Positions 6,892 to 64,000 of a stretch of DNA of 64,000 nt are shown here, one piece after another. Under the pieces are notes generated by a model, which made no database searches, was not told the DNA's origin, and saw nothing but the letters and a program-made list of their open reading frames with translations. The position numbers were made by a program, and so were the translations under genes. The DNA comes from Atriophallophorus winterbourni (Eukaryota; Platyhelminthes; Trematoda; Plagiorchiida; Microphallidae), in contig JACCGJ010001899.1 of NCBI GenBank assembly GCA_013407085.1, positions 1 through 64,000 on the forward strand. Direction: 5' to 3'. Each line of letters starts with the position of its first letter. Positions within the stretch are counted from its first letter, which is position 1.

Positions 6892-7125
6892 TTATGCGAA
6901 GTTTTTCTGTTTTGACATCAACATTATGTTCGCCGGTCGATTGCGATAATTGCTTCTTCGCAATACGCTCATCAACACAAGTGGTGCATTCCAAAAAGGT
7001 TTTGATATCTTCTTGTATTTCTTTATATCGATGCTGAATACTATGTGTACTAAATATGTACCAACGATTTTGTTAAAACTGGAACATTCGAGCTCATTTT
7101 TTCGTAAGTCCAGCATTTTCTTCAT
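6892..7125 (-). CDS. Terminal exon, copy A
   Basis: The exon follows a strong TTTTTTAG acceptor and reads 77 codons to TAA. It is basic and ends in a Lys/Arg-rich region with the conserved block FWNAPLVLMS and the ending NIMLMSKQKNF. Copy B (55606-55839) keeps the frame, length and stop, but 23 of 77 residues differ while only about 4 codons differ silently. The bases just downstream are nearly identical in the two copies. An ATTAAA about 60 bp after the stop could be the polyadenylation signal. Confidence 0.55.
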   Translation of the reverse strand: MKKMLDLRKNELECSSFNKIVGTYLVHIVFSIDIKKYKKISKPFWNAPLVLMSVLRRSNYRNRPANIMLMSKQKNFA

Positions 7126-7203: not shown

Positions 7204-7271
7204 CTCTCCACAAAATACGGATAAATTCGTACTACCCGTAGTGTATTGAGTTTCGAAAGTAGCATGCAAAT
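7204..7271 (-). CDS. 68-nt hypervariable exon, copy A
   Basis: Acceptor ATTCACAG, 2 nt plus 22 open codons, donor GAGAG/GTTTGT. It starts LHATFETQ and ends FCGE. Its end phase (0) matches the terminal exon. Against copy B (55919-55986), 10 of 22 codons differ and all ten change the amino acid. The intron on both sides is nearly unchanged. Confidence 0.5.
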
Positions 7272-9158
7272 CTGTGAATTGATAAACGTCAGAACACTGA
7301 ATTAAGTTCGATTATATAAAATAAACGATCGATTCATCCTTCATCTTTGTAATCAACCTTTTGTAAAAAATGGAACTTACTGACTTTGTTCGTTTCAGTG
7401 CCATTGTGAACATAATCTGTAGGAAATGTATACATAATGACGCATGCAGATTCCGTGAATTATAAAAAAGCTCTTACATAAATATCACGTAAATTATTTG
7501 CGCATCCGAAGTAAAAAAATACTTGAATTTTTCATTCATATTTAAACAATCCGATGATATGAAGAATCCTCATTTTTATACATTTCCATCACAAGCCACA
7601 ATATATTGCGATATGAACATAGAGGAGTCAAACATACAAATTGACCAGAGGAATTAAATGACACCAATAAAGAATACATATCAAATAATTGGCATAACAA
7701 CATGAACATCAAGTGATATTCATGTGACCTGTCGATTATCTCAGTCAGCGGTGGTTCAAAATATGTACGTTTCTCTAAATTACAACACGATAAATAATCA
7801 CCCGTCGAATTCATGTGAAAACCATACCTCAGAACAAATTACATTTTGATCAGCCATATATAGATTTTGACTATGGGTATCAATCGGAACCACGTGATGT
7901 TTGTACAATCTAACACGTTTTGCGTGATTTAGCAATCTGCTTTTTGAATATCGATGTTTAGCACAGGGTACACAACGATATGTGTTAATCCGTTTCGTCA
8001 AATGAAATGATTATCCCTCCAAAATTGATCATGATGAATTAAATTTGATCTACAATCGAAGCGATCGAGATCTAAATCTTACAAGTTGACGTGACAAGAA
8101 AATAAATTTCATGTTCAAGCATTTGATCACAACAGGTGTTAAAACGTCTGAATTCCAAGGTCGGAGAGAGCATGTGTAAGATAAATCGCTCCTTTTTAGC
8201 TTCTTAATATATTTTTTAATGCTAATAACATCCTGTTTTAACGGGTTATTACGATTGAGCGAAGATACCTAATTGTTGCTTCGCGTTGCAAGACGGATGA
8301 CAAAAACATTTGAGACGCAGTTTCTCAATTGACCTAAAATTCCACATTCGAATACTTTGCCAACTTAGTTATGTTTTTAACACACCACAATGCTAACCAC
8401 ATGTCCAGACTGTGCACTCGGTAGTTTGCAAAATTGAATCCAAAATGGTTTCATTTAATTCGAATAGTGCAGCGATAATATATGCGATCAGTAGCCAATT
8501 TAACTAAGTCTAATTATATAGTCTCCCATTGTGCGGATGTTATCCTGTCATAAACAAGGTAAATTCGAGAATGTTCACGCAATGTAGACCGTTTAAAACT
8601 CAATGAATTGTGTTCCAGAAAGATGTGAGCTCTTTTAATTTTTATCGAATAGCTTTGCTCAAATTCCCTAGACGTTCATATTTTATGACGTGTCTATACA
8701 GCCCTCAAGTAGAGACGGTAATACTCATTTAAATCTATCCAGAAAAAGTGAACAATTTTTAGCGATATCGGTGTGTCAGCTTTCATATGTATATGGTTCC
8801 TACAAATGAACTAAGGTGTTCAATAACGAAATCACCAAGTCCTTTTTGTCAAGAGCTAAAATCTCATAAATACAACCAATGCACAGTGTTGCTCACATCC
8901 GACGCGCTTGAATGGCCGTATTCTGTTGTAATATTTTTTCATTCGGAATATCATATCAATTTCATTTTGGAATACGCTAAGATGCAATTATTTAAAATAA
9001 ACAAAATATACAACGTATAAAACTTCATAGTACTTTTGTTTCGGATAGTGTTTGGTTCTCACTATGCATTTTGTGTAAATGTTATTATTTTTCACATAGT
9101 TATTATGTCAATCAGTCAAACGATCATTCAAAATTCCAATTCTGAAATAAAAACTCAC

Positions 9159-9402
9159 AATAATGTGGATATACCGGAGACACCCAGACAGATTCGTCTT
9201 TGCCGGCCAAAGAGAACAAATAATTTCGAAGTTCCACGTGACCATGTTCGCTGATGTATTGTTGAAGATTCACATGCGGTGGGAATTGTAATTGAAACAT
9301 CGCAACATACTGAGAATTGCCTTGTTTGAACCATTTGAGAACCAAGCAATGATCCGCGATTAGATCACGAAATTGTTGTGCAATATTTGATGTTTTAATC
9401 AG
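9159..9402 (-). CDS. Largest internal exon, copy A
   Basis: Acceptor ATTCTCAG, 81 open codons starting at phase 0, then a GTGAGT donor in phase 1. Landmarks are ADHCLVLKWF, YVAMFQLQFPPHVNLQQYI and VWVSPVYPHY. Copy B has the same exon at 57896-58139, the same 244-nt length and the same phases. By eye 26 of 81 codons differ in meaning and 5 are silent changes. A third, diverged version lies at 28549-28777. No known domain is recognised. Confidence 0.6.
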
Positions 9403-13240: not shown

Positions 13241-15815
13241 AGACTTATGTACTAAGATTATAAACCCATGGCCATGAACAAAAAAGCTTATTTCAATCAT
13301 TTCCACCACAAACTACAACGGCTGTCATTTTTGTGCAGTAATAGGCAATATGATTAGGTTGCGTTAGCGCTTGAAATATTAGAAGATTGTTTAAAACTTG
13401 AGGTTTTATGTTTCGTTTGTTTGGTTTTACATCGAACGAGTCCACACATATGCGGATTGAGTCTAAACATATGATTATGAAAAATGATTATTTTCATGCA
13501 TTTCCAGGACACAACGAAGACTCATCAAATAAAGACAGTATGATCAGGATACGCGTCCACCAAATCAGTCCAGCGAATGCATGACTAGTTCGTCTGTTCA
13601 AAAATATGGACCATCATACTGTCACTTTCATATGTAAATGCAACCAATAATAAAGCTTCATTTCTTTTTGCACACGTTAAATTGATTTACGCTAATATCG
13701 ACTGTCCAATGTGTACTTCACAACATGTGTATTTTAGTTACCCGAAAAAATACGTTATTATATTAGAAAAATATATGACATTTTATTTAATTCCAATTTG
13801 GGATTTTTACCTATGTACGTTGCCGATATTTTCATAGTTTACCTGAAAAATGCTTTTTGTTAATGGGAAAAATATCCCATTTTTCAACATTCCTAGTCAT
13901 ATCCACTACACAGCAAAAACGTTAGCATACTCATTGCCGATCATACAAAAGGGAATCAATTAAATTTGTAAGCAAATCTAAATGCTAAGACAAAAATAAC
14001 ACAATTTTTTCAAATATTTGTTACTTAATTATTTGCGTTATCCATTTAGTATGAGATTCACACAAAATATATGATCGACTGAAAGGAATTCATGTAATAT
14101 TAACCGATTTAACAATATAGATCGTCAATATCAATTTTGAAATGGACTAGACAATTATCCAAATTTGAACGTATATGTTTCAGCGAATAGATTCCAAATG
14201 TTATTGCAATGTGTGTATCAGCACTTCTGTCAATATTTGTGGAATATTAATTTTACCTTTCAGCATAAACCTCACAATGCTTTGCGGATGTGTTCACACT
14301 TTGGCATTAATGTAGCTTTGCAGGTGGTTGACGGTGCCAAGATTGGATTAGCGATTAAGAAGCGATAAGGCGGTTCATTGGTTTAAGTGGAGTTTCCTTG
14401 AAATGCTCTTGGAATAATCTGTTATAATGTAAATCAATATCAATATCAATAGAGGCACCGACAATCCAAGTCAGTATTTAGGCGAAAATCTAATGATCGG
14501 CCTATCGTTCTTATGTGGTTCTTCTAGTTTATTACATCTGCATCACTGCCAGTAGATACGTCAATTTAATAATATTAATATTGATCAAAAGCAATACTAT
14601 AAACATGGAGATAGATAACTAAACAAACCAGCATCTAATTTTCTATATCCGGGGGTGAGTAATACATTTATTCTCAAGTCCCATTCGCTGCTTCCGAAAA
14701 CAATTTTGAGCAATATTTCCAGCGTGTAGTTATTCGGATCCTAAACATAATCAGTATGAAAGTTCAAGGCAAGCTACGTAAATAATGTTTGAGCAAATAA
14801 ATAAGATAATTATTTAAATGCTTATATTTTGGCTGATTTGTTAAGTTCACACGACATGGTTAGCTCATTATGTTTTTGCTACATTCAGAACGATCAACAT
14901 AGAATGAAGTCGAAACGCGCATAGATATATTTCCACATTCTATCACTTCTTCCAAATATTTTTCTACGTCTCTGTTCTAGTTAGAATAATTTGGTAATAG
15001 ATGTCAGATTAAATTCAACTGATAAAAAGCTGGCATCAATATTGAATATTCTTTAGACACATTTCAGGAGATTTTGAATGATCAATCGATGTAATATCAC
15101 ACGGTAGTCGATAATAAACAGTTGATTGTTTCTCAAGGAATTTATCCGGTGAACACCTCAACTTACGTTTGTAAATTCAGCGAAAAATGTGAATTGTCTT
15201 TTCATGTATAGAATTAACTAGCATTGCATGACATTTTTGCGTATCAAAATCCCTGACATTGAAATAAATCAATGATTAGCGCCATATTTTGAGAGGCGTG
15301 ATTGTTGTGAGCATACGAGTGACACATTAACTGAATAAAATCAATTTTACAGGATAATACCTAATGAACAAAATTCATCAACAAGGAAATTCACTTTCAT
15401 TTACACAAGCGTCTTTCACTGCGTATTTAGTTTCCAACATCAAATGAACCACTGTGAAACAAATATTCCGTTTAACGTATAAAATTATGTCCATTATGTT
15501 TTCAAAAAAACGGAAAATATTTTTGATGAGAAGACAGGCAAGAAACGTATACAAGCTTCCAATGAAAATCATGAAATAACAATATCGAAAGAAAACTTCT
15601 TTTGTAGTTTCACACTGAAATTCGCCTTCTAAGGTCAAGCAATTAATCAAAATTTCATTTTGAACAGCAGTCAACATTTGAGTGAATTATTATCCTTGAA
15701 AAATAGTTAATCTTCTTGTTTTTTAATGCAATCGGCAAAATCGACTCACAAACTTGCACTAGTAGTTTATGCATACATAACTTCATTCTACAAATGTCCA
15801 TAGTGAACCCCTTAC

Positions 15816-19405: not shown

Positions 19406-19652
19406 CGAAGTTCTGTTCCACCTTAAATTCGAAATTTTGCACACATTGCGATTTCACTGGAAAATCGATTCTGCGTAACAAGTTAGAAGTTTGATGCCAT
19501 CGTTCTGGATACCCGTACCACAGAGAGGCCTTGTTCGTTTCCATGTGCCCTGCATTCACTAACCAATCGTGCACAGGAAATTTAGACACTTTTCTTTCGA
19601 TTATGCTCAGAACAAAACTACATGATTTGTAAAATGGAATACTTTTCGCCAC
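19406..19652 (-). CDS. Candidate exon, unknown product
   Basis: An acceptor (TTTTTAAAG) is followed by 82 open codons starting at phase 0 and a GTGCGT donor in phase 1. Landmarks are FPVHDWLVNAGH, LWYGYPERWHQ and RRIDFPVKSQC. Phases and length (247 nt) match the large exon of copies A (244) and C (229), but the residues do not align clearly. It could be a very diverged family member or an exon of another gene. Confidence 0.35.
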
Positions 19653-24723: not shown

Positions 24724-24780
24724 TAACGCGACATCCAACTTAGTTTATATTTGAGAAGCATTTTAAAGTGATTTTAGCGT

Positions 24781-25202
24781 TGTAAAAGGCAGAATTCCAA
24801 TTATTTTTATTGAAAATCAAACGTTCGAATCTCCTGCATTTTGTTCATTTTTATCGTTTTGTTTTACTGAACTATTTGAAGTTATTGGATTTTGGGTCAA
24901 CGTTTTTGTATCTTTATTTGGCCGTTCGCGCGCAGTTGAAATTGTGACATTTAGCTGTATTTGTTGCTATTGAATATTCGTTGTTTTTGGATTCAGTACG
25001 AAGCGGAATAATTGAGGTTTGCTATTTTATTGAATAATTATTTCGTTTCAATAGTACCGTATTGTCCCACGTATTGTCTTGTCAATATTTTGGTGGGCTT
25101 GGACGCGTCACTCAACCGTTCATTAGACACATTGGTGCCTATACCGTGACTGAATACTTCGACGTTGAACTCGAGTTTCCCCGGACCGTATTGGTGGTTA
25201 CA
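24781..25202 (+). repeat. Pao-1 5' LTR
   Basis: 422 bp, starts TGTAAAAGGC and ends GGTTACA, matching 27400-27822. The 15 bp after a short GTACTCAAT spacer (TGGATTCGTTCGAGC, 25212-25226) could be a primer-binding site because it starts TGG. The tRNA is not identified. Confidence 0.93.
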
Positions 25203-25228
25203 GTACTCAATTGGATTCGTTCGAGCAA

Positions 25229-27124
25229 ATGAGGAAAACGAAGAAATCGTCGAAGAAAACGACTAAACACGAACAAAAGGATCCTTTGGACGGGCAAGTC
25301 GGTAATCTTCCATTGTTTGATAACATGTCATTCTCTGGTTCGGTAGTCAGTTCTAACTCTGATAACCTTAGGGCGCAGTTTGTGTTAGCACGAATAGAGG
25401 AAGAACAGAAGCGTCAGGAGCTTGAGTTAGGAATGTTGATCGCTGCGAATGCTACTCGACTAGCACGACTTAAATTAGAACTGTCTGAGGATGGAGATTC
25501 TCGCCAGGTTGCTGGAGACCGTAAGGCTGAGAAGACCGTCAAGGCATATCTCAGCTCAGTTAAACCCCAAGAAGCACGCAAAGAGCCAAGTCATTTCCCT
25601 GACCGTGTAACACCGGTGATGCCACGAGTAGAATTGCAGTATTTTGATGGCAATCCATGTCAGTATTGGAAATTTGTACGTCAGTTTGAAAACTATGTTG
25701 AAAGTAATGTTTTTGACGACGGACAACGTATGCTGTATTTGCTGCACTATTGTAAGGGTCAAGCGCGAGATGCTATCGATGGATGTAGTATGTTGTTGCC
25801 CGAAACTGCCTACAAAAGGGCGCGAGAGATACTAACTGATCTCTACGGACAGACTCACGTTATCGCGCGGTCAATGATTGACCGGTTAATTTCATCCATG
25901 GAAAAAGTAAAGTCAAACGGGGTCTCGCTGACCCAACTTTCGATAGAGATGCATAACTGCGAGACTGCTCTCTCTCAAATGAATTACGAGGGGGACCTTG
26001 ATTTTTTGACGACACTTGAGTTGGTCGTCTATAAATTACCATATGAACTGCATGATCGTTGGGCCAGATTAGTTGATGTGATCAACCAAGGCAACCGTCA
26101 GCCTAAATTTCATGACCTGCAGCGGTTTATAGCGGACGAGGCACGTATATGTCGTAGTCGCTTCGGTCAAATTGCGACCAAATCGATTGTAAAGACGATG
26201 GAGAAGACAAGTAGAGACTTTTCGCGAGTTCATGCTACAGTTAACCGCACGGGCCAGTTTCAATCAAACTTTGACAGCAGTTGTTATGTTTGTGGTGATA
26301 AATACGATTTGGATAATTGTGACATGTTCAAATCTTACGATGTGACTGGTCGGTGGAATGTTGTCAAGAAATATCAGGCTTGTTTCTTATGTCTTCTTAC
26401 CGGTCATCGAGCTGTAGATTGCCGCAAGAATGTGTTCTGCTCTGTCTCTGGTTGTAATGGGAGGCATAATTACTTGTTACATATGCACAAGGAAGGGAGT
26501 GATCAAAATTTGCTAAGATGTAACAGTATGAGTGCTCGTTTTGAACGTGTCCGTCTGGGCACATTCCATGTTACCGTTCTGGGACCACGAGGCGCAGTAG
26601 ATACATACGCTATGTTGGATAACGGATCTGATGTGTCTCTTGTGAAAAGTAGCCTTCTTGTTGAATTGGGAATTCAACCCGAAAAAGAAGTCCTACATAT
26701 TCGAACGCTGAATTCGGATTCTCATCTAGAATCTGGGACAACAGAACTCTCGCTAGCACCATTAGGTTGTGATAAACCTACTGTGGTGATACAGCGCGCA
26801 TTTTGTGTTTCGAATTTGCCTAGAAACAATTGTTATTCGGCTGCTATTGACGCCAAGCCATGGGAACATTTGAATGATTTAGATTTACCTGACATTCCTA
26901 ATCACTCGGTTGGTCTGCTTATTGGAGCGGACGTACCAGAAACACATGGGGTATTGGAGCAGAGATTTGGTCGCCCCAACGAGCCATTTTCTTACCTAAC
27001 CACGCTTGGCTGGGTGGTTCTGGGACCAGTTAATTCCCAGACGACACGTAACAAACTCGTGTTAAGTGTTCAAAGGGAATTCACAGATGTGACCGAGCAA
27101 TTGAAAATTGGTTTCGTTACGTAA
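25229..27124 (+). CDS. Pao-1 Gag-protease polyprotein
   Basis: The ORF is open from a TTG at 25211, but the first ATG is at 25229, giving 631 residues. A Lys-rich start and a charged coiled-coil-like stretch (about residues 45-90) come first. The Pao-type gag domain (DUF1759) runs from about 130 (VELQYFDGNPCQYWKF) to about 290. A cysteine box at about 352 has Tyr where His is usual (CYVCGDKYDLDNC). A canonical CCHC knuckle follows at about 384 (CFLCLLTGHRAVDC). The Pao retropeptidase domain (DUF1758) has active site LDNGSD at about 464 and the conserved LLIGADVPETH and TTLGWVVLGP. The ORF stops just after the protease, where RT normally begins. It packages RNA and processes Gag. Confidence 0.92.
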   Translation: MRKTKKSSKKTTKHEQKDPLDGQVGNLPLFDNMSFSGSVVSSNSDNLRAQFVLARIEEEQKRQELELGMLIAANATRLARLKLELSEDGDSRQVAGDRKAEKTVKAYLSSVKPQEARKEPSHFPDRVTPVMPRVELQYFDGNPCQYWKFVRQFENYVESNVFDDGQRMLYLLHYCKGQARDAIDGCSMLLPETAYKRAREILTDLYGQTHVIARSMIDRLISSMEKVKSNGVSLTQLSIEMHNCETALSQMNYEGDLDFLTTLELVVYKLPYELHDRWARLVDVINQGNRQPKFHDLQRFIADEARICRSRFGQIATKSIVKTMEKTSRDFSRVHATVNRTGQFQSNFDSSCYVCGDKYDLDNCDMFKSYDVTGRWNVVKKYQACFLCLLTGHRAVDCRKNVFCSVSGCNGRHNYLLHMHKEGSDQNLLRCNSMSARFERVRLGTFHVTVLGPRGAVDTYAMLDNGSDVSLVKSSLLVELGIQPEKEVLHIRTLNSDSHLESGTTELSLAPLGCDKPTVVIQRAFCVSNLPRNNCYSAAIDAKPWEHLNDLDLPDIPNHSVGLLIGADVPETHGVLEQRFGRPNEPFSYLTTLGWVVLGPVNSQTTRNKLVLSVQREFTDVTEQLKIGFVT

Positions 27125-27367
27125 AATGATTGGGCCAACCAGGTTGGTTGAAGTAAAGCATGGAAAACGTCTGGCTTCTGATCAACCTGGCTAAAAGAGC
27201 CGGTGAATTTTGTCACGTGTGTGAGGCATGGAGAACGTCTTGTGCATGATGACATTATCTCACTTTAATTCCGAAAGTAACATCTACGCGTTTGTTCTAG
27301 CATATGAGTTGAAGAATGAATAATGACCTTCTTAGGGAACCAGAGCATGTGCATTGTTAACCTTTGT

Positions 27368-27399
27368 GAAATCCGGTGCGGATTTCGAAGGGGGGGCGA
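27368..27399 (+). promoter_or_regulatory. Hairpin plus polypurine tract of Pao-1
   Basis: A perfect 8-bp inverted repeat with a 3-nt loop (GAAATCCG GTG CGGATTTC, 27368-27386) is followed directly by GAAGGGGGGGCGA, which abuts the 3' LTR. The purine run is the expected plus-strand primer. The hairpin is an observation with no assigned role. Confidence 0.65.
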
Positions 27400-27822
27400 T
27401 GTAAAAGGCAGTATTCCAATTATTTTTTATTGAAAATCAAACGTTCGAATCTTGTGCATTTTGTTCATTTTTATCGTTTTGTTTTACTGAACTATTTGAA
27501 GTTATTGGATTTTGGGTCAACTTTTTTGTATCTTTATTTGAACGTTCGCGCGCAGTTGAAATTGTGACATTTAGCTGTATTTGTTGCTATTGAATATTCG
27601 TTGTTTTTGGATTCAGTACGAAGCGGAATAATTGAGGTTTGCTATTTTATTGAATAATTATTTCGTTTCAATAGTACCGTATTGTCCCACGTATTGTCTT
27701 GTCAATATTTTGGTGGGCTTGGACGCGTGACTCAACCGTTCATTAGACACATTGGTGCCTATACCGTGACTGAATACTTCGACGTTGAACTCGGGTTTCC
27801 CCGGACCGTATTGGCGGTTACA
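27400..27822 (+). repeat. Pao-1 3' LTR
   Basis: 423 bp, TGTAAAAGGC to GGTTACA, followed by the AGCGT target duplication. Confidence 0.93.
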
Positions 27823-48687: not shown

Positions 48688-49262
48688 TGTATTGTCTGTG
48701 AACGTGAGTTACGACGTAGTCCAACCGTTTCTTATTTCGAAATTCAAAACAACGATTGGGATATTCTACGGTACTGTAATTAACAACAATTACAACAAAA
48801 ATAACTATACAAACCTTAATTGTATAGGAACGTCACAGCAACAATGGAGCCAAATACTCCAGAATCAAATTCAATTCAAACAAAAGACGACCTGATATAA
48901 AAATAATAAGAATCGATTTACCAAAATGTCGTCCAAACTTTCTGTGACAATCAAAAATGACACTCAAAATAGCGTCCAAATTCAAGCAAAATACTGAAGC
49001 CCAAAATGGCAACCAAATTCCGCAACAATGACCGACAATGGCAGAAACAATAAATTAAAACAAACATTTGACCGAAGGCGTGTACAGAAAAGATTTACAA
49101 TAACAGAAATAATTACAAAAAGAAAAGTTTTATATCAAAATACTGTAGGAAAATTAAACACAAGCAAAATCTATTACACAAAATTCAGGTTTTGTAACTA
49201 GGTTCAAAATAAAAGGAATGTTGAAGGGAAAGGAAGAATTTCAAACTACTTTGAACCTTACA
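48688..49262 (-). repeat. Pao-2 3' LTR
   Basis: 575 bp. On minus it starts TGTAAGGTTC and ends GACAATACA. Preceded on minus by GGTCGGAGG, a short purine-rich stretch. Confidence 0.92.
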
Positions 49263-49466
49263 CCTCCGACCAAATTCTTTCTAGGGCTCAACTGTACAAC
49301 GCTTGTTCAACGAATTCCCTAATGAATTCAGAGCAGCAAATGACTTTATTTAGTGGCGAGTCACTTCCGCCACATTACATCACCATCATTGGATATTAGT
49401 AGCTTTTTATAGAGAATGCGGTTGCAAGCCGCAGACTCACCACATCCTCCGGTGATGCTTCTTGCC

Positions 49467-51419
49467 TTATAAAGAAGAGTTGTCCTGATCCTTACCCAAG
49501 TCACCCACCTCTTGGGACCCTTCTAACAAACATACTTTACGAATATCACGCCGGATCACGTCATCCCTTGTTCGTATGCTGACCGTTCGTACCAAACCAT
49601 CATCATTTACTTCCGCTGTCTCAATAATACCAAGCGGCCGCGACATTTTCGACAATTCTTCAGACACAACCGATACTACATCACCGGGAATCAAATTGTG
49701 ACGTGTGTTGATCCATCGTTGTCGTTCTTGTGTCTGTGCGGTGAGAACACTTACATGATTAACAACTGTCGCACAATCGGTTGGTCCCTGTAGCACCCAT
49801 CCAAGTAACGTCTTGGTAGCGAATGGCTGCTTTCGACCACCTACGCGTTGTTCAAGCACCCAATGCGCTTCCGGTACGTTACAGCCAATAAGCAAAGTTA
49901 TTTCTCTCCCCACATTTTCTGAAAACTTCAGATCTTTCAAATGTGCATACCTCGTGCTGATCATATTTGGAGATTTCAGCACTGCTTCAGGTAACTTTGA
50001 AACCGTGTAAGCTTCAGCAACATGAATTATTTCATCACTGTCTACCGAATGCACATCGAAACTTAACAACGAACTTTTCAACTTTCGATGAAGACCAAGT
50101 GTTGCTATCGACACATCAACTGGCGCACTAGGCATACAAAATTTCTCAACAAAACTCTGCGAGATCAAAGTTGTATCAGAGCCATTATCAAGTAAAGCCA
50201 CGGCTGGAACAAGTCCAACTGGCGTGTCAATGTTCACTGTCAGGTAGCCTAAGCTTACTGCTGTACTGAGAGCAGTAACACTGCAGTTTATACTTTTCAG
50301 TTGCTCATTAGGACGATCATAATGCAGCGAAGAATGGTGTCGTCTATTACAACCTTCAACGGAACAAGTATTCGTAATCTTGCAATCGAATGCCCTGTGA
50401 GACCGGCATAAGCAAACGTAACATATTCCATGCTGCTTAGCCATATTCCATCTGGCTTTTACGTCAGCCTCCTGATAAACAGGACAATCTTCTATCTTAT
50501 GAGGTCCTCTACATTGAAAACATTCAACCAGCATTGGCCTCGGTTCCCTCGTAGTCATAAACACCCTCCTTTCATCTTGCATTCTTGGTTTCTCTGATGG
50601 CTTCGAAGAGACAGATGTCCTATCTATTAGCATGCCAAATCTGCTCCTGGCAATTCTTGCTCTCCGAGATACGAACTCGGTCAGACTGGCAAAATCAACT
50701 TCTGACCCGTCAGCAAGCATTGTATCCGCTGCGTCAGCCCACTGCTGTTGTAACGCAACAGGGAAGCATTTCACTAATCCTTCCAAAGTTGTGACTGAAT
50801 TCAAATCAGCGTCACACTTCATTTGCGTCAATGTGATTTGGCAATTTTCCATTTTTATGGCCAAATCAGACAAACAATCGACTTTGTTGGAAAGTCTTCT
50901 AGCTTCATCAAGCAACTCCTCTAATGTTGATCTGGCAATTACATGTGGTAGTCCAAACAAGTCTTTCAAAATCTTCTTTGCCCGCGTATAACCCTCAGTG
51001 GGTTGTAGCATGACACATGCATCAATTGCTTTTCGAGCCTTGCCCCGACAGTAATACAATAAATACAACAGTCGCTGGCCTGGATCCATAAGCCTCGACT
51101 CAACGTAACATTCAAACTGTTTCAGAAACTTCCAATAGTCTATCGGATTACCGTCGAAGTAGGATAATTCTACTTTAGGCAATCCCATACTCATGTTCAT
51201 CGCTGGTTGCAAATAGCTTACCGCCGAGTCGAACCCTTCAGTTTTGCTACTTGTACCGGCGATCAAGTTTACTTCTTCAGCGACTCCTCGTCGTTCCTTT
51301 GTCAAGCGCTCTATCGTTGATCTAGCAGCATCTAAATCGCGCTTTAATTGTAACACTTGTTGAGAACTCGCAATGCTATCTCTATCATCATCGTTTTCCT
51401 TAGAAGCTATCTTAGGCAT
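49467..51419 (-). CDS. Pao-2 Gag-protease-integrase C-terminus fusion
   Basis: The frame is open from 51485, but the first ATG is at 51419, giving 650 residues. A charged start with coiled-coil-like KRDLDAARSTIERLTKERR comes first. The Pao gag domain (DUF1759) starts at about 80 (LPKVELSYFDGNPIDYWKF). A first knuckle at about 300 is CFQCRGPHKIEDC and a canonical CCHC follows at about 332 (CYVCLCRSHRAFDC). The retropeptidase (DUF1758) has LLDNGSD at about 409, then LLIGCNVPEAHWVLEQR and LLGWVLQGP. The last 88 residues (RQRWINTRHNLIPGDVV to RRDIRKVCLLEG) are the DUF5641 domain that normally ends Pao integrases. The joint near 49730 removes RT to integrase core while keeping the frame. Confidence 0.92.
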   Translation of the reverse strand: MPKIASKENDDDRDSIASSQQVLQLKRDLDAARSTIERLTKERRGVAEEVNLIAGTSSKTEGFDSAVSYLQPAMNMSMGLPKVELSYFDGNPIDYWKFLKQFECYVESRLMDPGQRLLYLLYYCRGKARKAIDACVMLQPTEGYTRAKKILKDLFGLPHVIARSTLEELLDEARRLSNKVDCLSDLAIKMENCQITLTQMKCDADLNSVTTLEGLVKCFPVALQQQWADAADTMLADGSEVDFASLTEFVSRRARIARSRFGMLIDRTSVSSKPSEKPRMQDERRVFMTTREPRPMLVECFQCRGPHKIEDCPVYQEADVKARWNMAKQHGICYVCLCRSHRAFDCKITNTCSVEGCNRRHHSSLHYDRPNEQLKSINCSVTALSTAVSLGYLTVNIDTPVGLVPAVALLDNGSDTTLISQSFVEKFCMPSAPVDVSIATLGLHRKLKSSLLSFDVHSVDSDEIIHVAEAYTVSKLPEAVLKSPNMISTRYAHLKDLKFSENVGREITLLIGCNVPEAHWVLEQRVGGRKQPFATKTLLGWVLQGPTDCATVVNHVSVLTAQTQERQRWINTRHNLIPGDVVSVVSEELSKMSRPLGIIETAEVNDDGLVRTVSIRTRDDVIRRDIRKVCLLEGSQEVGDLGKDQDNSSL

Positions 51420-51750
51420 ACTAGATGAAATATAAAACAATGTTCCAAAACGACAAAAAATAAATAAAAAAGGGGACGTCACCAAAGTTGTGAACAGGGA
51501 TTGACTGTCAAATGTTCAATGTCACGACGATCGGGGAGTCCTTCGCCAATTTTGCTCAATATAGCTTCGATTGAACGAACCAAATGCGTATTTTCTCCGG
51601 TTGAGACAAATACTGTACCAGTCAGAAGACAAGTTGTGATACGAATCCAATTGAAACGATCCAACTTGAGCACAGAAACCGAATTGATGCAATTCACGAA
51701 TTGTGTACTTCTCGCCAAGTTCGAGAAGAATCAAATTCCAAATTAAGTAC

Positions 51751-52325
51751 TGTATTGTCTGTGACGTGAGTTACGCGTAGTCCACCCGTTTCTTATTTCG
51801 ATAAATTCAAAACAACGATTGGGATATTCTACGGTACTGTAATTAACAACAATTACAACAAAATTAACTATACAAACCTTAATTGTATAGGAACGTCACA
51901 GCAACAATGGAGCCAAATACTCCAGAATCAAATTCAATTCAAACAAAAGACGACCTGATATAAAAATAATAAGAATCGATTTACCAAAATGTCGTCCAAA
52001 CTTTCTGTGACAATCAAAAATGACACTCAAAATAGCGTCCAAATTCAAGCAAAATACTGAAGCCCAAAATGGCAACCAAATTCCGCAACAATGACCGACA
52101 ATGGCAAAAACAATAAATTAAAACAAACATTTGACCGAAGGCGTGTACAGAAAAGATTTACAATAACAGAAATAATTACAAAAAGAAAAGTTTTATATCA
52201 AAATACTGTAGGAAAATTAAACACAAGCAAAATCTATTACACAAAATTCAGGTTTTGTAACTAGGTTCAAAATAAAAGGAATGTTGAAGGAAAAGGAAGA
52301 ATTTCAAACTACTTTGAACCTTACA
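51751..52325 (-). repeat. Pao-2 5' LTR
   Basis: 575 bp. The sequence just inside it on minus (GTACTTAATTTGGAATTTG) resembles the same place in Pao-1 (GTACTCAATTGGATTCG), suggesting a shared primer-site layout. Confidence 0.92.
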
Positions 52326-55113: not shown

Positions 55114-55605
55114 TTAGTTTAATCCTTCCCCGGAGCATATCTTCTTTAAAATTTAAGAAACAGAAATCCAAACATCTCAGTTGCAAACTTGAGCTTTACG
55201 TTAAAGTCTACGGTCGTCCGTCGGAAATAAAACCACGTGTGAGCATTTATGCTAATTTTTCCAGTGCTTAAAAAAGCATTTCTATCAGGCTTCACATTCA
55301 GTAAAAAATTTATGTCACAGTGATAAGCTGTACACGAGTGTGACCGAGGCTTTTTTTATCAAAAATTCAATTGTAACTTTACACCGAAAATCGTGAACAT
55401 TTCCCGTGTGAAAATTGCACCCAGATTCTGTTTACTCATGTGTCCGATTATGGCAAGGTTACTGAAATTTCTTCCAAATCACAAACATACTATTCTGAGC
55501 CCCATGCGGCTTCGACACATTTAAAAATAGTCAAAATATGAATTTAATGAAGCCAAACTTGAAACGTTTCATTCAAATTAAAAACACACAAAACCGGAGA
55601 AAGCG

Positions 55606-55839
55606 TTATGAGAAGTTTTTCTGTTTTGACATCAACATTATGTTCACCAGTCGTTTGTGATTATTTTGTCTTCGCAATGCACTCATCAGCACAAGTGGTG
55701 CATTCCAAAAAGGTCTTGTTATCCCCTTGTATTTCCTCATATCGATGCTAAATACTATCTGTACTAAATATGTACGATAGATTTTGTTAATCCTGGAACA
55801 TTCGAGCATATCGCTTCGCAGGGCCAGCATTTTCCTCAT
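55606..55839 (-). CDS. Terminal exon, copy B
   Basis: It follows CATTTTTTTAG and runs 77 codons to TAA. FWNAPLVLMS and NIMLMSKQKNF are shared with copy A. The rest is heavily substituted, mostly by replacement changes. Confidence 0.55.
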   Translation of the reverse strand: MRKMLALRSDMLECSRINKIYRTYLVQIVFSIDMRKYKGITRPFWNAPLVLMSALRRQNNHKRLVNIMLMSKQKNFS

Positions 55840-58800
55840 CTAAAAAAATGCAAAGAATTCAGTACTTAAAATTGAGCTAAAAATAGACCAGCTTCGCAAT
55901 ATAGAACTAATCACAAACCTCTCCACAAAATTCGGTTGGCATCGTGTTATCCTTAATCAATTGAGTTTCGAAAATAGCATGCAAATCTGTGAATTGATGA
56001 ACGTCAGAACACTGAATTAATTTCGATTATATAAAATAAACGATCGAGGGCATCGTTATTATAAGATTCATCCTTTATCTTTGTAATCAACCTTTTGTAA
56101 AAAATGTAACTTACTGACTCTGTGCGTTTCATTGCCATTGTGAACATAATCTGTAGGAAATGTATACATAAAGACGCATGCAGATTCCGTGAATGTATAA
56201 AAAAGCTTTTACATAAATATAACTTAAATTATTTGCGCATCCGAAGTAAAAAAATTCTTGAATTTTTCATTCATATTTAAGCAATCCGATGATATGAAGA
56301 ATCCTCATTTTTATACATTTCTATCACAAGCCACAAGATATTGCGACATGAACATAGAGGAGTCAAACATACAAATTGACCGGAGGAATTGGATGACACC
56401 ATTAAATAATACATATCAAATAATTGGCATAACAACATGAACATCAAGTGATACTCATGTCACCTGTCGATTATCACAGTCAGCGGTGGGTCAAAATATC
56501 TACGTTTCTCTAAATTCCAACACGATTCATAATCACCCGTCGAATTCATGTGAAAACCATACCTCAAGACAAATTACGTTTTGATCAGCCATATAAATAG
56601 ACTTTTACTATAGGAATAAATCGAAACACTTGATGTTTGTACATTCCAACACGTTTTACGTGACTTAGCAATCTGCTTTTTGAATATCGATGTTTAGCAC
56701 AGGGTACACAACGATATGTGTTAATCCGTTTCGTCGAATGAAATGATTATCCCTCCAAAATTGATCATGATATATTAAATTTGATCTACAATCGAAGCGA
56801 TCGAGATCTAGATCTTACAATTTGATGTGACAAGAAAATAAATTTCATGTTCAAGCATTTGATCACAACAGGTGTTAAGACGTCTGAATTCCAAGTTCGG
56901 AGAGAGCATGTGTAAGATAAATCGCTCCTTTTTAGCTTGTTAATATATTTTTTCTAATGCTAATAACATCCTGGTTTAACGGGTTATTACGATTGAGCGA
57001 CGTTACCTAATTGTTGCTTCGCGTTGGAAGACGGATGACAAAAACATTTGAGACGCAGATTCTCAGTTGACCTAAAATTCCACATTCGAATACTTTACCG
57101 ACGTAGTTATTTTTTAACACACCACAATGCTAACCACATGTCCAGACTGTGCACTCGGTAGTTTGCAAAATTGAATCCAAAATGGTTTCATTTTATTCGA
57201 ATAGTGCAGCGATAATATATGCGATCAGTAGCCAATTTAACTAAGTCTAATTATATAGTCTCCCATTGTACGGATGTTATCCTGTCATAAACAAGGTAAA
57301 TTCGAGAATGTTCACGCAATGTAGACCGTTTAAAACTCAAGGAATTGTTTTCCAGAAAGATGTGAACTCTTTTAATTTTTATCGAATAGCTTTGCTCAAA
57401 TTCCCTAGACGTTCATATTTTATGACGTGTTTATACAGCCCTCAAGTAGAGACGGTAATACTCATTTAAATCTATTCAAAAAAAGTGAAGAATTTTTAGC
57501 GATATCGGTATGTCAGGTTTCATATGTATATGGTTTCTACAAATGAACCAAGGTGTTCAATAACGAAATTACCAATTCCTTTTTGGCACGAGCTAAAATC
57601 TCATAAATACAACCAATGCACAGTGTTGCTCACATCCGCCGCGCTTGAATGGCCGTATTCTGTTGTAATATTTTTTCATTCGAAATAGCATATCAACTTT
57701 ATCTTGGAATACGCTGAGATGTAATTATTCAATATAAACAAAATATACAACGCATAAAACTTTATCGTACTTTTATTTCGGATAGTGTTTGTTTCTCACT
57801 ATGCCTTTTGAGTGAATGGTAATATTTTTCACATATTTATTTTGTCAATCAGTCAAACGATCATTCAAAATTACAATTCTAAAATAGAAACTCACAATAA
57901 TGTGGGTAAACCGGAGCAAACCAGACAGATACGTCTCTGCTGGTGAAAGAGAACAAATCTTCTCGAAGTTTCACGAGACCTTGTTCGCCGATGTATTGTT
58001 GAACATTCACATGCGGTGAGAATTGTAATTGAAACATCGCGACATATCCCGATTTGCCTTGATTGAACCATTTGAGAACCGAGCAATGATCCGAGGTTAG
58101 ATAACGAAATTGTGGCGCCTTATTTAGTTGTTTAATCAGCTGAAAATGTGAACAAAACGTTTAATTTAGTGTCCAAGATTCGAGATTCATGATTAACGGT
58201 TAAAAACTTGAATTGCTGTACACTACCATAGGATATACGTATGAAAATTAAAAACATCGTTACTTGTATGATCATATCCGTGTTCCTCAAAGGTGGAGAA
58301 AAAATAATCCCCAATGGCGACACAAACTGATGGATGAGGATCTTTGGATGGACGGTAGTTCCGTGTGTAAAACAAAAATATCTACATCAATAGGTAGGGG
58401 CCAATGCAGTAGTTCAATTCAATTCAACATAATAATTCGTAACCTGTGTGCTAGATCGCTCAGGTAACAAAGCTATTCTACGAAAAGCATACACGAACAG
58501 CAAAGAAGTGACGACGATATTTCAAACGTGACTTTGAGAATTGAAGGGTCAAAGGCTGGCTGCGTGTGAGGATAACGTAACCGAACTTGAAGAGGTGTTT
58601 GAGAGGGTGAAATTTCGCGTAGCTGTTTCGATATTTCAGAGTGAGATCGTTTAGGATACGTCTGCACTCGAAGGTGCGTGATCTAAGTCTGGTAAGTCGC
58701 TGCTCAAACATTGAATTATTTAATACGGTAACCATTTTGGTTGCGAAATGATAAATTCGTTCGAGGAGTAAGATGTTTTTATCCATCTATGGCGTCCAAG

Positions 58801-61800
58801 CTTTTACACCGTAGTCAACGTCAGGATTTATGTAAGTGTTCAATATTATCGAGATTAAATCTAGTTGAAAACGTCCGAAAATGCGTTTCAGTAAACAAAG
58901 CAAGCTGCACGCACGCTTGTAGACAGCTACGCACTGAAGGCTGTTCTTCCAAATGACAGACATCAAGATTCCGATAAGATTTTTCGATGAACTCCATTGA
59001 AGCGGTTGGCTGCTGAGTGTGTAGGTAAACAGGAAGGGTTATCTAACTTGCAACAGTTTGCAATTTTTCAAATTAAATGGCAGTTTGTTTGAGATTTACC
59101 ACTGGTGCAGCTTAATCAAATCTTCATGTGAACTTGACATTCGTCGATAGAATTGACCTTCATCCTGATTTTTACATCGTCTGCAAATAAAACTAGCTAA
59201 CTTGCGAGTAATTTAGGTAGATCGTTTATAAATATGAAAAACAGTATCGGACTAAGAACCGAAACCTGAGGGACTCTGCTCCTGGCTTCAATTGTTCGAG
59301 AAGTTTCACCACCTTTGCTGACTTTCACTTTGCGTCCAGACAGACAATTTGTAAACCATCTAGGTGCGTTTTCGATGACGCCAACATTCTGCAGCTTTTG
59401 AAGCAGTAAGGAGTGAGTTACACTGTCGAATGCTTTATATATATCTAAGTTAACGGCACGGACCGAAACCTCTTGGTTTACTGCTTCCGTCCAGTCTTTA
59501 GAGTCATGAGGAAGTTAAACAGGCGATAATATGTTTTCATAAACCTGTGTTGTGTGAAAGTTATCAGCGAATGATAATCAAGATGTTAAACGAGTCGTTC
59601 AAACACGAGGCGTTCTAGAATTTTAGAAACGCTGTAAGAAACGTCACGGGTCGGTAATTTGCTGGATCAGAACGACTGCCCCCTTTGTAGATTTGTGTGA
59701 TAACCCCTGTTATTCATTGAGTTGTTACAGTTCCCGTATATAATGAGTGCCTGAATAGACCAGATAGTGGGTCACAAAGCTCCAGATCGCATGGTTTGAG
59801 AACAGCAGGTGTTATTTCATTCTCTCCGGGTATTTTTTCCCACAACCATAGGATTTACCTCGATGTTACCTAGGCATTCAACCTGTTGTGGGAGCCTCAG
59901 AGACGCCAGATTTGACATGTTCTTTGGATAAAATGATACTAGGCATCAGCTGTATCCTTGACATCATCAGTCAGTCCGTTCTCTGTATGGATGGGAGATA
60001 CACCTGGTTTAACCTCAATCGCGGTGTTTACGATGGTTTACTCCAAATTAGGATTTCTTTCCATCTGGTCGATTACCTTCCAATGGCGATATGGCTTGTC
60101 TTTTCCGATTGAGGACGTCAACTTTTTACGAAAAGCTACGAAAGTGTTACTAAGATAAATGTGCTTGTGTTATTTTGTGTTAATTCCATTCAAAATTTTT
60201 TCATGTCTATCCATTTTCGAGTGCGGCTTCGGAGTTTGAAGCAAAATGGTATTGAATTCCTTTTGGTAAAACGGTTGGAATTTTCGTTCAGTTTTGTATC
60301 AGATATAACTTAACAGACTAAAACAATGAGTTTCTGCATTCGGAAGGTCGAAGTAATCGACGCTCTTGATAAACGTAACTTGGTCCGACGCCCTTCTGGC
60401 GTTGCACACGAATTTGAAGAACAACGTCAGATTGTCAATTATCATCAAAGGACTATGATACTGCATTGACTCTAAAGCTTTTGCTTTGAAGGTTAAAACC
60501 AGATTTAGAATTCATGATTCATTTAGCCCCCTCTGTTGAGTGAATTAATGGGCATGGTTGTACAGGGGATTGAAATTGATTCTACTACGGAATTTTTACT
60601 CAAGGGATTGCTGATTATGCACACGTTTAGTGTAGAGATGTTGGAGGTTGAAATCACGTATTATTAACAATAGGAATCCTTCAAGGTTTCTAGCGTTGCG
60701 CATCATTTGTAACAACGTTTTATTGGGAGAATCGTACTAGTTGGGCGAGCGGTAGATCACACTAAGTATGCAGTTCTCTCCAGGTTTCAAACGAAGGCTA
60801 CCCCACATGGTGTTCTTAAGCTCGAATTTTGCTTCAGGTCCAGCTGTGAATTGAAGACGTTCCTTATAATACATAGAAACTCCACCACCTGATCTTTAAC
60901 GGTTTCATTAAAGGAGAATCATGTTGGAAAGTGCTATCTCGCAATCGTTAACCTGATCGTAAAACAATGTTTCGGTTATAGAAATCATGCTAGCAGAAAA
61001 CTAAGCGGTAATATGAGATAATTAGGCTATTTTGTTCCGCAAGCACTCTGCATTCGTGTATAGGCATTTACCAGTGGTTTTCGTGTGGTCCATCGTCCTT
61101 GTATTTTGAAGACTTCGGAAACGTGATGGTATTCGCGACAACGTTTCCGCGTTCTTCAATAGATTCTGCAACGTATAACCAATGTCTTTAGCTTCTTGTT
61201 GTTTTTTCACTAGTTCTGTTGTACTGCTATCTCCTGGAACGACTGGAAGAATCAGACTGCACTCATTGATTTTCTTACGCACGTCTCTCCCTCCTTTTGA
61301 TTCTTACCAGGGTATTTCGGCGTACATTTTATTATTGTTCGTAGTTATGTCACGTACAATGTAAGAATTCAAAACAACAATCTACATATTCATCTCACTG
61401 ATTAGTTTTACTTTTATTAGCCGCGCTTCGCCGACGTGTGATTAGCTGTGGTAGCGAAACAAACGTGTAACGTTTCCATCCCCATCAACGTAAATAGTGT
61501 GGACCGTTGTTCTAGGTCGTATCGCTGTCTATTCTCCAGAATGTTATTGCTAGACTCCTGTATGTTGGTACAGATTACAGAGAGATTTTCGGCGATCTCC
61601 AGGGCGGCAACATCAGGAGTTGAAATCGATTATATGAGCGGAACAGGTCGGTGCTCCTTTCAAATATGGACCGATCTTTTATAGCTTGCACAATTGAATG
61701 TGAATTACACGATGAGGTCATGGATAAGACGTATGATTAGGTTGGTATGTCTAATCTGCTCAATCCCTCGAGCCCAGACTTATTTACTATGATTTTAAAC

Positions 61801-64000
61801 CCATGGCCATTAACAAAAAAGCTTATTCCAATCAATTCCACCACAAACTACAACGGCTGTCAAGTTTGTGCATTTATTAGTTATGGGCAAAAGGATTAAG
61901 TTGCGTTAGCGCTTGAAACAGTGGAAAATTGGTTAAAATCTGAGGTTTTATGTTTCATATATTTGGTTTTACACCAAACGAGTCCACACGTATGCGAATT
62001 GGGTCTAAACATATGATTATGAAAAATGCTTATTTTCATGCATTTCCAGTACACACTTAAGAATCATCAAGTAGGGACTGTATGATCAGGATACGCGTGC
62101 ACCAAATCAGTCCAGCGAATGCATGACTAGTTCGTCTGTTCAAAAATATGGACCATCATTCTATCACTTTCATATGTGAATGCAACCAATGATAAAGCTT
62201 CATTTCTTTTTGCACACGTAAAATTGATTTACGCTAATACCGACTTCCCAATGTGCGTTTCACAACATGTGTATTTTAGTTACCCGAAAAATACATTATT
62301 AATGCAAAATAGATGACATTTTATTTAATTTCAATTTGGGCTTTTCGCAATGTACCTTGCAGATATTTTCATAGTTTATTTGAAAAATGCTTTTTTGATA
62401 ATGGGAAAAATACCCCATTTTTCAACATTCCTAATTATATCCACTGAACAGCAAAAATGTTAGCATACTCATTGCCGATCATACAAAAGGGAATCAATTG
62501 AATTTGTTAGCAAATCTAAACGCTAAGACGAAAATAACACAAATTGTTTAAATATTTGTTACTTAATTATTTGCGTTATCGGGTTATTATGAGATTCACA
62601 CAAAATATATGATTCAATGAAAGGAATTTATGTAATAATAACAGATTTAACAATATACATAGTGAATATCAATTTTAAAATGGACTAGATAATTTTCTTA
62701 ATTCGATTGTATACGTTTCAGCGAATAGTTTCTAAATGTTACTGCAATGTGTGTATCGTAAATCCTGTCATTAGTTTGTGATTATGAATTTTAGCTTTCA
62801 GCATAAACCTCACGATGCTTTGCGGATGTGTTCACACTTTGACATTAATGTAGCATTGCAGGTGGTTGAAGGTGACAAGATTGGATTAGCGATTAAAAGG
62901 CGATACGGAGATCCATTGGTCTAAGTGGAGTTTCCTTGGAATGCTCTTGGAAAATTTGTTATAAAATAAATTAATAACTTTTTGGAAAATAGAATCACCA
63001 ACAATCCAAGTCAGTATTTAGGCAAAAATCTCATGATCGGCCTATTGTTCCTATGTAGTACCTCCTGTTTATTACATCTGCTTCACTGCCGGTAGATACG
63101 TCAATTTATCAATATTAATATAGATCAAAAGCAATCAAATAAACATGGAGATAGATCAAATAATAAACCAACATCTTAGTTTCTATATCTGGGGGTGAGA
63201 AATAAATTTATTCCCAAGTTCCATTCGCTGCTTCCGAAAACATTTTTGAGCAATATTTTCAGCGTGTAGTTATTCCGATCTCCAACCAAATCAGTATGAA
63301 AGTTCAAGGCATCTACGTAACAAATGTTTGAGCAAATAAATAAGAAAATTATTTAAATGCTTATATTTTGGCTGATTCGTTAACTTCACACGGTATGGTT
63401 AGCTCATTATGTTTCTGCTACATTCAGAACGATCAACATTAACTAAAGTCGAAACGCACATAGATATATTTTCACATTCTATCAATTTTTCCAAATATTT
63501 ATCTACGTCTGTGTTCTAGTTAAATTAGTTTGGTAATAGATGTCAGATTGAATTAAACTGATAGAAAGCTAGCATCAGTATTAAATATTCTGTAGACACA
63601 TTTCGGGAGATTTTGAATGGTCAATCGATGTAATATCACATGGTAGTCAATATTAACCAGTTGATTGTTTCTCACGGAAATCATCCGGTACACACCTAAC
63701 TTACGTTTGTAAATTTAGTGGAAACTGTGAAATGTCTTTCCATGTATAGAATTAACTAGCATTGCATGACATTTTTGCGTATTACAATCTCCGTTAAAAT
63801 GCGAGAAATCGATGATTAGCGACATATTGTGAGAGGCGTGATTGTTGTGAGCATATGAGTGACATATTAACTGAATAAAATCAATTTTACAGGACAATAC
63901 CTAATGAACAAAATTCATCAACAAGGAAATTCACTTACATCAACACAAGCATCTTTGATTGCGTATTTAGTTTCCAATATCAAATGAACCACTGTGAAAC
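55606..64000 (-). CDS. Copy B of the multi-exon secreted-protein gene (5' end outside window)
   Basis: Exons on minus, 5' to 3': 63939-63991, 63705-63755, 62814-62920, 57896-58139, 57573-57592 (20-nt microexon), 56609-56672, 56464-56509, 55919-55986, 55606-55839. Each has an AG acceptor and GT donor (for example GTAAGT, GTGAGG, GTGAGT) and an open frame. The phase runs are consistent for the first three, for 57896 to 57573 to 56609 to 56464, and for 55919 to 55606. Two joints (62814 to 57896 and 56464 to 55919) need a further small exon each. With a first exon like 15816-15978 the product would be about 350 residues, secreted, with no recognised domain. A decayed CR1 LINE lies in the intron at 58168-61760. 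Confidence 0.6.
57896..58139 (-). CDS. Largest internal exon, copy B
   Basis: Acceptor CACATTTTCAG and donor GTGAGT, 81 cod­ons plus 1 nt. It reads TSDHCSVLKWF, YVAMFQLQFSPHVNVQQYI and FAPVYPHY. It differs from copy A at 26 residues, while its length, phases and splice sites are kept. Confidence 0.6.
58168..61760 (-). mobile_element. CR1-like LINE inside the copy B gene, decayed
   Basis: Same insertion as 9434-13240. On minus: ORF1-like (61740-61430), an endonuclease start NAECLRNKI (near 61030), EN and RT remnants, and an RT C-terminal reading NNSMFEQRLTRLRSRTFECR (58786-58478). The 3' tail is near 58170. The RT catalytic region is more degraded than in copy A. Confidence 0.8.

Follow-up and report, generated by a model that had tools for sequence, protein, structure and literature searches.

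The window analysed here, the first 64,000 bases (1–64000) of a 238-kb contig (JACCGJ010001899.1) in the genome of the trematode Atriophallophorus winterbourni, contains two copies, A and B, of a gene family that, to judge from its sequence, is multi-copy, protein-coding and transcribed from the minus strand, the copies in the window belonging to a tandem array of large units. The family is probably best explained as a birth-and-death family in which diversifying selection acts on a cassette of C-terminal exons and copies exchange this cassette with one another; the pressure may come from a host. Selection for change is well supported in the last three exons, e3–e1; in these, reading frames and splice sites are preserved while the amino acid sequence evolves more quickly than neutral intron DNA, which points to selection for change rather than to a loss of constraint. 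The family appears to be new to the libraries searched, but its mode of evolution, that of a fast-evolving multigene family in which exon divergence exceeds intron divergence, is already known.

Six exons (e1–e4, e6 and e7) are supported by sequence, and in copy B their phases chain from e7 to e1 into 882 nt of open sequence, 725 of which lie in exons of 234–247 nt. All are on the minus strand: e7 at contig position 67981–68227, outside the window, e6 at 63939–63991 (53 nt), the large exon e4 at 57896–58139 (244 nt), the micro-exon e3 at 56115–56150 (36 nt), e2 at 55919–55986 (68 nt) and the terminal exon e1 at 55606–55839 (234 nt with the stop codon, 77 aa). A search for open reading frames (ORFs) with conserved splice sites returned 16 exon-and-frame candidates, among them e4, e3, e2, e6, e7 and the main part of e1. 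The terminal exon is open in 13 of the 14 copies fetched, e2 is in frame and open with its splice sites kept in 14 of 14, e3 is open and constant in length in 15 of 15, e4 has its whole length open in 8 of 15, and e6, which fits e7 and e4 in phase, is open in all five copies in which it was mapped, including the distant copy C14201. ORFs of 49–60 codons in the introns are open in only 3 of 16 to 9 of 15 matches, whereas that of e1 (77 codons) is open in 10 of 11. In copy A, projection of the B exons onto the minus strand places e1 at 6892–7125, e2 at 7204–7271, e3 at 7381–7416 and e4 at 9159–9402, all open, and e6 at 15399–15451, where the donor is no longer GT; e7 (247 nt) lies at 19406–19652.

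The contig carries four copies of the gene region, their e1 exons at 6892, 55606, 96997 and 134032, the last two outside the window. The family as a whole is estimated at roughly 30 copies, because each of three exon queries matches the 537 Mb of genome searched 35 to 38 times: 35 times for e1 (33 matches without a stop), 35 for e7 (34 without a stop; 28 strong, at an expectation value (E) of 4.5e-16 or better, and 7 weak) and 38 for e4 (26 without a stop), this last query including 12 intron residues and some of its matches being two pieces of one copy. For 26 of the 28 strong e7 matches, an e4 match follows about 6–14 kb downstream on the same strand and contig; the other two are copy D, from which e4 is absent, and C3755.

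Between copies A and B, e1–e4 differ at 89 of 582 aligned bases (15.3%), against 108 of 2162 (5.0%) in the introns between them together with 235 bases of 3′ flank, and 1045 of 12373 (8.4%) in the remainder of the unit as far as 71 kb, e6 and e7 excepted. Other non-exon segments of the unit range from 3.4% to 11.7%. The exon excess gives a Fisher p of 3.6e-15 against the local introns and flank and of 1.0e-7 against the rest of the unit, and is reached by 36 of 20,000 circular shifts of the exon mask. The alternation is sharp at e2, which differs at 14 of 68 bases between flanking introns that differ at 2 of 78 and 4 of 109. The excess described in the initial annotation is therefore real for e1–e4, and its figures of about 36 differences in the 234 bases of the terminal exon and about 13% in the large exon agree well with the 34 of 234 and 38 of 244 (15.6%) measured. 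Its count of about 79 replacement and 12 silent differences is close to the 75.2 (31.0 + 44.2) and 13.8 (7.0 + 6.8) obtained by the NG86 method, although over e4–e1 and not over the nine exons then proposed, six being supported. The intron divergence of about 1.6% holds for the two stretches from which it was taken (3/185 with 2 gap columns and 4/239 with 19 gap columns) but is not typical of the introns and overstates the contrast, because the two copies are most alike just where both stretches lie. Nor is the pattern general, since e6 (6/53, flanks 77/796) and e7 (7/247, flanks 25/800) show no exon excess between A and B; their dN (replacement substitutions per site) values are 0.093 and 0.021, and their dS (silent substitutions per site) values 0.271 and 0.061.

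The comparison was extended to the 10 distinct copies, of 14, with an open e3–e1, giving 45 pairs; C, D and C2921a, identical or nearly so to others, and C15186b, which has a stop, were left out, as were the i34a intron distances of C15186a (about 0.31), an alignment artefact caused by an insertion. In e3–e1, dN exceeds the intron divergence K of a wide set of introns in 43 of 45 pairs and exceeds dS in 40 of 45. The median dN/K is 1.98 with the wide set and 1.60 with the nearest introns; for dS/K the medians are 1.31 and 1.09, respectively. An unlikely alternative, and one already weakened, is that the exons retain an older, unit-wide divergence and that recent gene conversion has equalised the introns, with no positive selection. 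The lower divergence of the local introns (5.0%) than of the rest of the unit (8.4%) would be expected from such homogenisation, as would an e1–e4 dS of 0.10–0.14, near the 10.6–11.7% of the adjoining upstream segments, and a dS above the wide-set K in 34 of 45 pairs. Homogenisation does not, however, lift dN over dS, and the M0 estimate of omega (dN/dS) is above 1; the exon dS is close to the divergence of the nearest introns, and the excess is also seen against C2921b, the introns of which are not homogenised with those of B. Against this copy, B differs at 123 of 577 exon bases, 361 of 2141 local non-exon bases and 1665 of 11734 bases in the rest of the unit (p 0.0085 and 4.1e-6), an excess that is present but smaller than that between A and B.

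A codon-model analysis, run with our own code on 11 sequences and 112 codons of e3–e1, gave an omega of 1.67, different from 1 (twice the log-likelihood difference 8.46, p 0.0036). M2a was favoured over M1a (36.11, p 1.4e-8), with about 43% of codons at an omega of 3.5 and 22 sites above 0.9; in these site models branch lengths were scaled, not re-optimised, and recombination was not modelled. IQ-TREE returned −1758.5, against −1764.2 with omega fixed at 1 and kappa at 2. A hotspot of mutation within the exons or close by, lifting all substitutions there, is scarcely probable: exon dS is somewhat above the wide-set intron K, as it would predict, but dN exceeds dS, and the differences summed over pairs are fewest at the third codon position (1185, 1072 and 888 for the first, second and third positions). 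Relaxed constraint, by which the exons would no longer be coding and would be drifting as pseudogenes, is very unlikely, since drift cannot surpass intron divergence, and e1–e3 are open and of exact length in nearly all copies, in keeping with the 33 stop-free e1 matches out of 35. The lesions in copies A, C and D and the limited number of copies with an open e4 (8/15) are on its side, as is C14201, in which the exons are about as divergent as the introns (80/242 in e4, 401/1366 in the e3–e4 intron).

Diversifying selection on e3–e1 is accompanied by signs of exchange between copies. Over a 3′ cassette at 55250–57400, comprising e3–e1 and part of the e3–e4 intron, copy C2921a resembles copy A: the two differ by 0–1.3% in eight 250-base bins from 55.25 to 57.25 kb. 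From 57.5 kb onwards they differ by 7–17% (6.7% in one short bin), and C2921a is there closer to B (3–10%). Copies C5370a and C15186a show no differences in e4 and its upstream intron i45, one in i34b and 20 in e3–e1. These two patterns therefore place a switch point in the e3–e4 intron, and the mosaic copies support the earlier proposal that parts of the locus are kept alike by exchange among copies. Ectopic recombination in this long intron may be what shifts the cassette from copy to copy. The block at 56025–57331, in the e2–e4 region, is bounded by edges found again in many copies, some of which have other sequence inserted next to it. Several copies have broken parts (the e6 donor is lost in A, a 1-base deletion shifts the frame of e4 in C, and D is without e4), which to judge from the sequences is the mark of birth and death.

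Several results weigh against diversifying selection on a functional, exchanged cassette. Site-model tests of the kind used here can be inflated by recombination. The tendency of e3–e1 dS to exceed the wide-set K means that part of the gap between exons and introns of A and B is due to the similarity of the introns, not to the speed of the exons. For e4 (7 sequences), omega is 1.25 and not different from 1 (p 0.34), with a p of 0.017 for M2a, and 7 of 15 copies have this exon broken. In the closest pairs dN is not higher than dS (0.056 against 0.086 for C2921b–C8397, 0.054 against 0.091 for C15186a–C5370a), C1258 has no AG before e1, and searches for a first exon, a 5′ end and a signal peptide gave several weak candidates, none of them supported. 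The case for diversifying selection is a weak one at e4, and between A and B no such signal is seen at e6 and e7; the interpretation first put forward is upheld in part: for e3–e1, for exchange between copies and for the unrecognised nature of the family, but not for a secreted protein.

No relative of the family was found in Pfam, where 219-aa and 322-aa composites and family alignments gave sub-threshold matches only, in the PDB (nothing better than E 0.8), or in a large protein set that holds fluke proteins, by a method that requires shared five-residue words; a literature search by keyword, not by sequence, found no description of it. A CUB-like match (PF02408) over e7–e6–e4, in one of the three family members scanned, scores 16.2–16.3 bits (16.2 and 16.3; E 0.0092 and 0.0082), below the Pfam gathering cut-off of 23. 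The predicted structure of e1 has a mean predicted local distance difference test score (pLDDT) of 63.5 and a predicted template modelling score (pTM) of 0.41, and none of its 51 matches among PDB folds reaches E ≤ 0.001. Two stretches of e1, PFWNAPLVLL and K.KTFS, are conserved, and the C-terminal exons may code for a contact surface that varies while its scaffold is conserved. Very distant relatives of e7, L045 and L046 (contigs C2582 and C11250), keep a YPERWH stretch, and sequences of this kind suggest that there may be a wider superfamily.

By analogy with fast-evolving families of flukes and venoms, the protein is probably host-facing and could be secreted, and selection would be exerted by the host in some life stage. 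Snake three-finger toxin genes are likewise duplicated and multi-exonic, with highly similar introns and differing exons (PMC2474615), but their exons are described as changing by the switching of short segments (PMC2474615), whereas in the fluke family substitutions are spread along e1–e3 and the whole 3′ cassette is exchanged; no sequence relation between the two was found in Pfam or the PDB. Schistosome MEG and VAL genes have undergone species-specific expansion and show transposable elements within genes and a raised dN/dS (PMC4350168), features in which they resemble the fluke family. MEG genes are described as built of short exons of 3–81 bp (PMC10526429), unlike the exons of 234–247 nt that hold most of the coding sequence here. 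The family also differs from VAL genes in that no CAP domain match was obtained with the 219-aa and 322-aa composites at E values up to 10, in a model that lacks the N-terminal part. The polymorphic mucins of Schistosoma mansoni carry mucin repeats, and these were not seen in the fluke family, compared by description rather than by alignment. These mucins too form a multigene family of a fluke, and their variation is thought to face the host, a snail (PMC2576457).

A possible but doubtful extension of these analogies is that the family constitutes a fluke-specific store of about 30 genes for variable C-terminal recognition modules of undescribed fold, from which the e3–e1 cassette, bounded by the long intron with its recombination breakpoint, would be swapped between a working copy and copies that are partly broken, in the manner of donor-and-acceptor systems for antigenic or ligand variation. 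Diversifying selection on an exchanged cassette would in any case make this an apparently undescribed flatworm example of a tandem family in which exons outpace introns, with copies enough to test individual sites. Should the protein be host-facing, the family and its individual variable residues become defined targets for testing, in a group where a partner is known for few families of this kind. The mosaic copies provide a way of asking whether, in a parasitic animal, recombination carries variable modules from gene to gene.

Several other candidates were rejected. A putative exon e5 (58264–58341) has stops in 3 of 15 copies, is off in length by 2 nt in five copies and by 1 nt in one, and lacks the AG in C2921b and the GT in C2921a; a putative e9 (71581–71669) has only four genome matches, all on the window's own contig. 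A Kunitz-like terminal exon would need a frame with in-frame stops in copy B, the other frame being open in 10 of 11 copies, and the ORF at 63718–63900, in which an ADAM-like active site was considered, has no Pfam match. Two repeated domains (e6 + e4 and e2 + e1), suggested by eye and by equal phases, were dismissed, a comparison of profiles from the e1 and e4 exon alignments giving a probability of 0.6%.

Mobile elements are present in the window. A pair of long terminal repeats (LTRs), 97.4% identical, surrounds a 651-aa ORF with a DUF1759 match at 24777–27822, read as a short Bel/Pao-type element, with no reverse transcriptase ORF listed there. At 48688–52325, LTRs that are 98.6% identical surround a 682-aa minus-strand ORF that combines gag-like and DUF5641 parts in a single frame, the C-terminal part matching DUF5641, and the nearest named relatives of which are trematode proteins. 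Among the 26 proteins nearest to a Bel/Pao-type ORF of the window, from the best 8000 candidates scored, 21 carry an organism name: 20 are from trematodes (Schistosoma, Dicrocoelium, Paragonimus and Opisthorchis) and one is from a flea, in keeping with a trematode host genome. Decayed ORFs resembling the reverse transcriptase of long interspersed nuclear elements (LINEs) were seen by eye on the minus strand at 58400–61300, in the intron upstream of e4. Mitochondrial COX1 fits the flatworm genetic code, with AAA codons at residues that are presumably asparagine in other animals.

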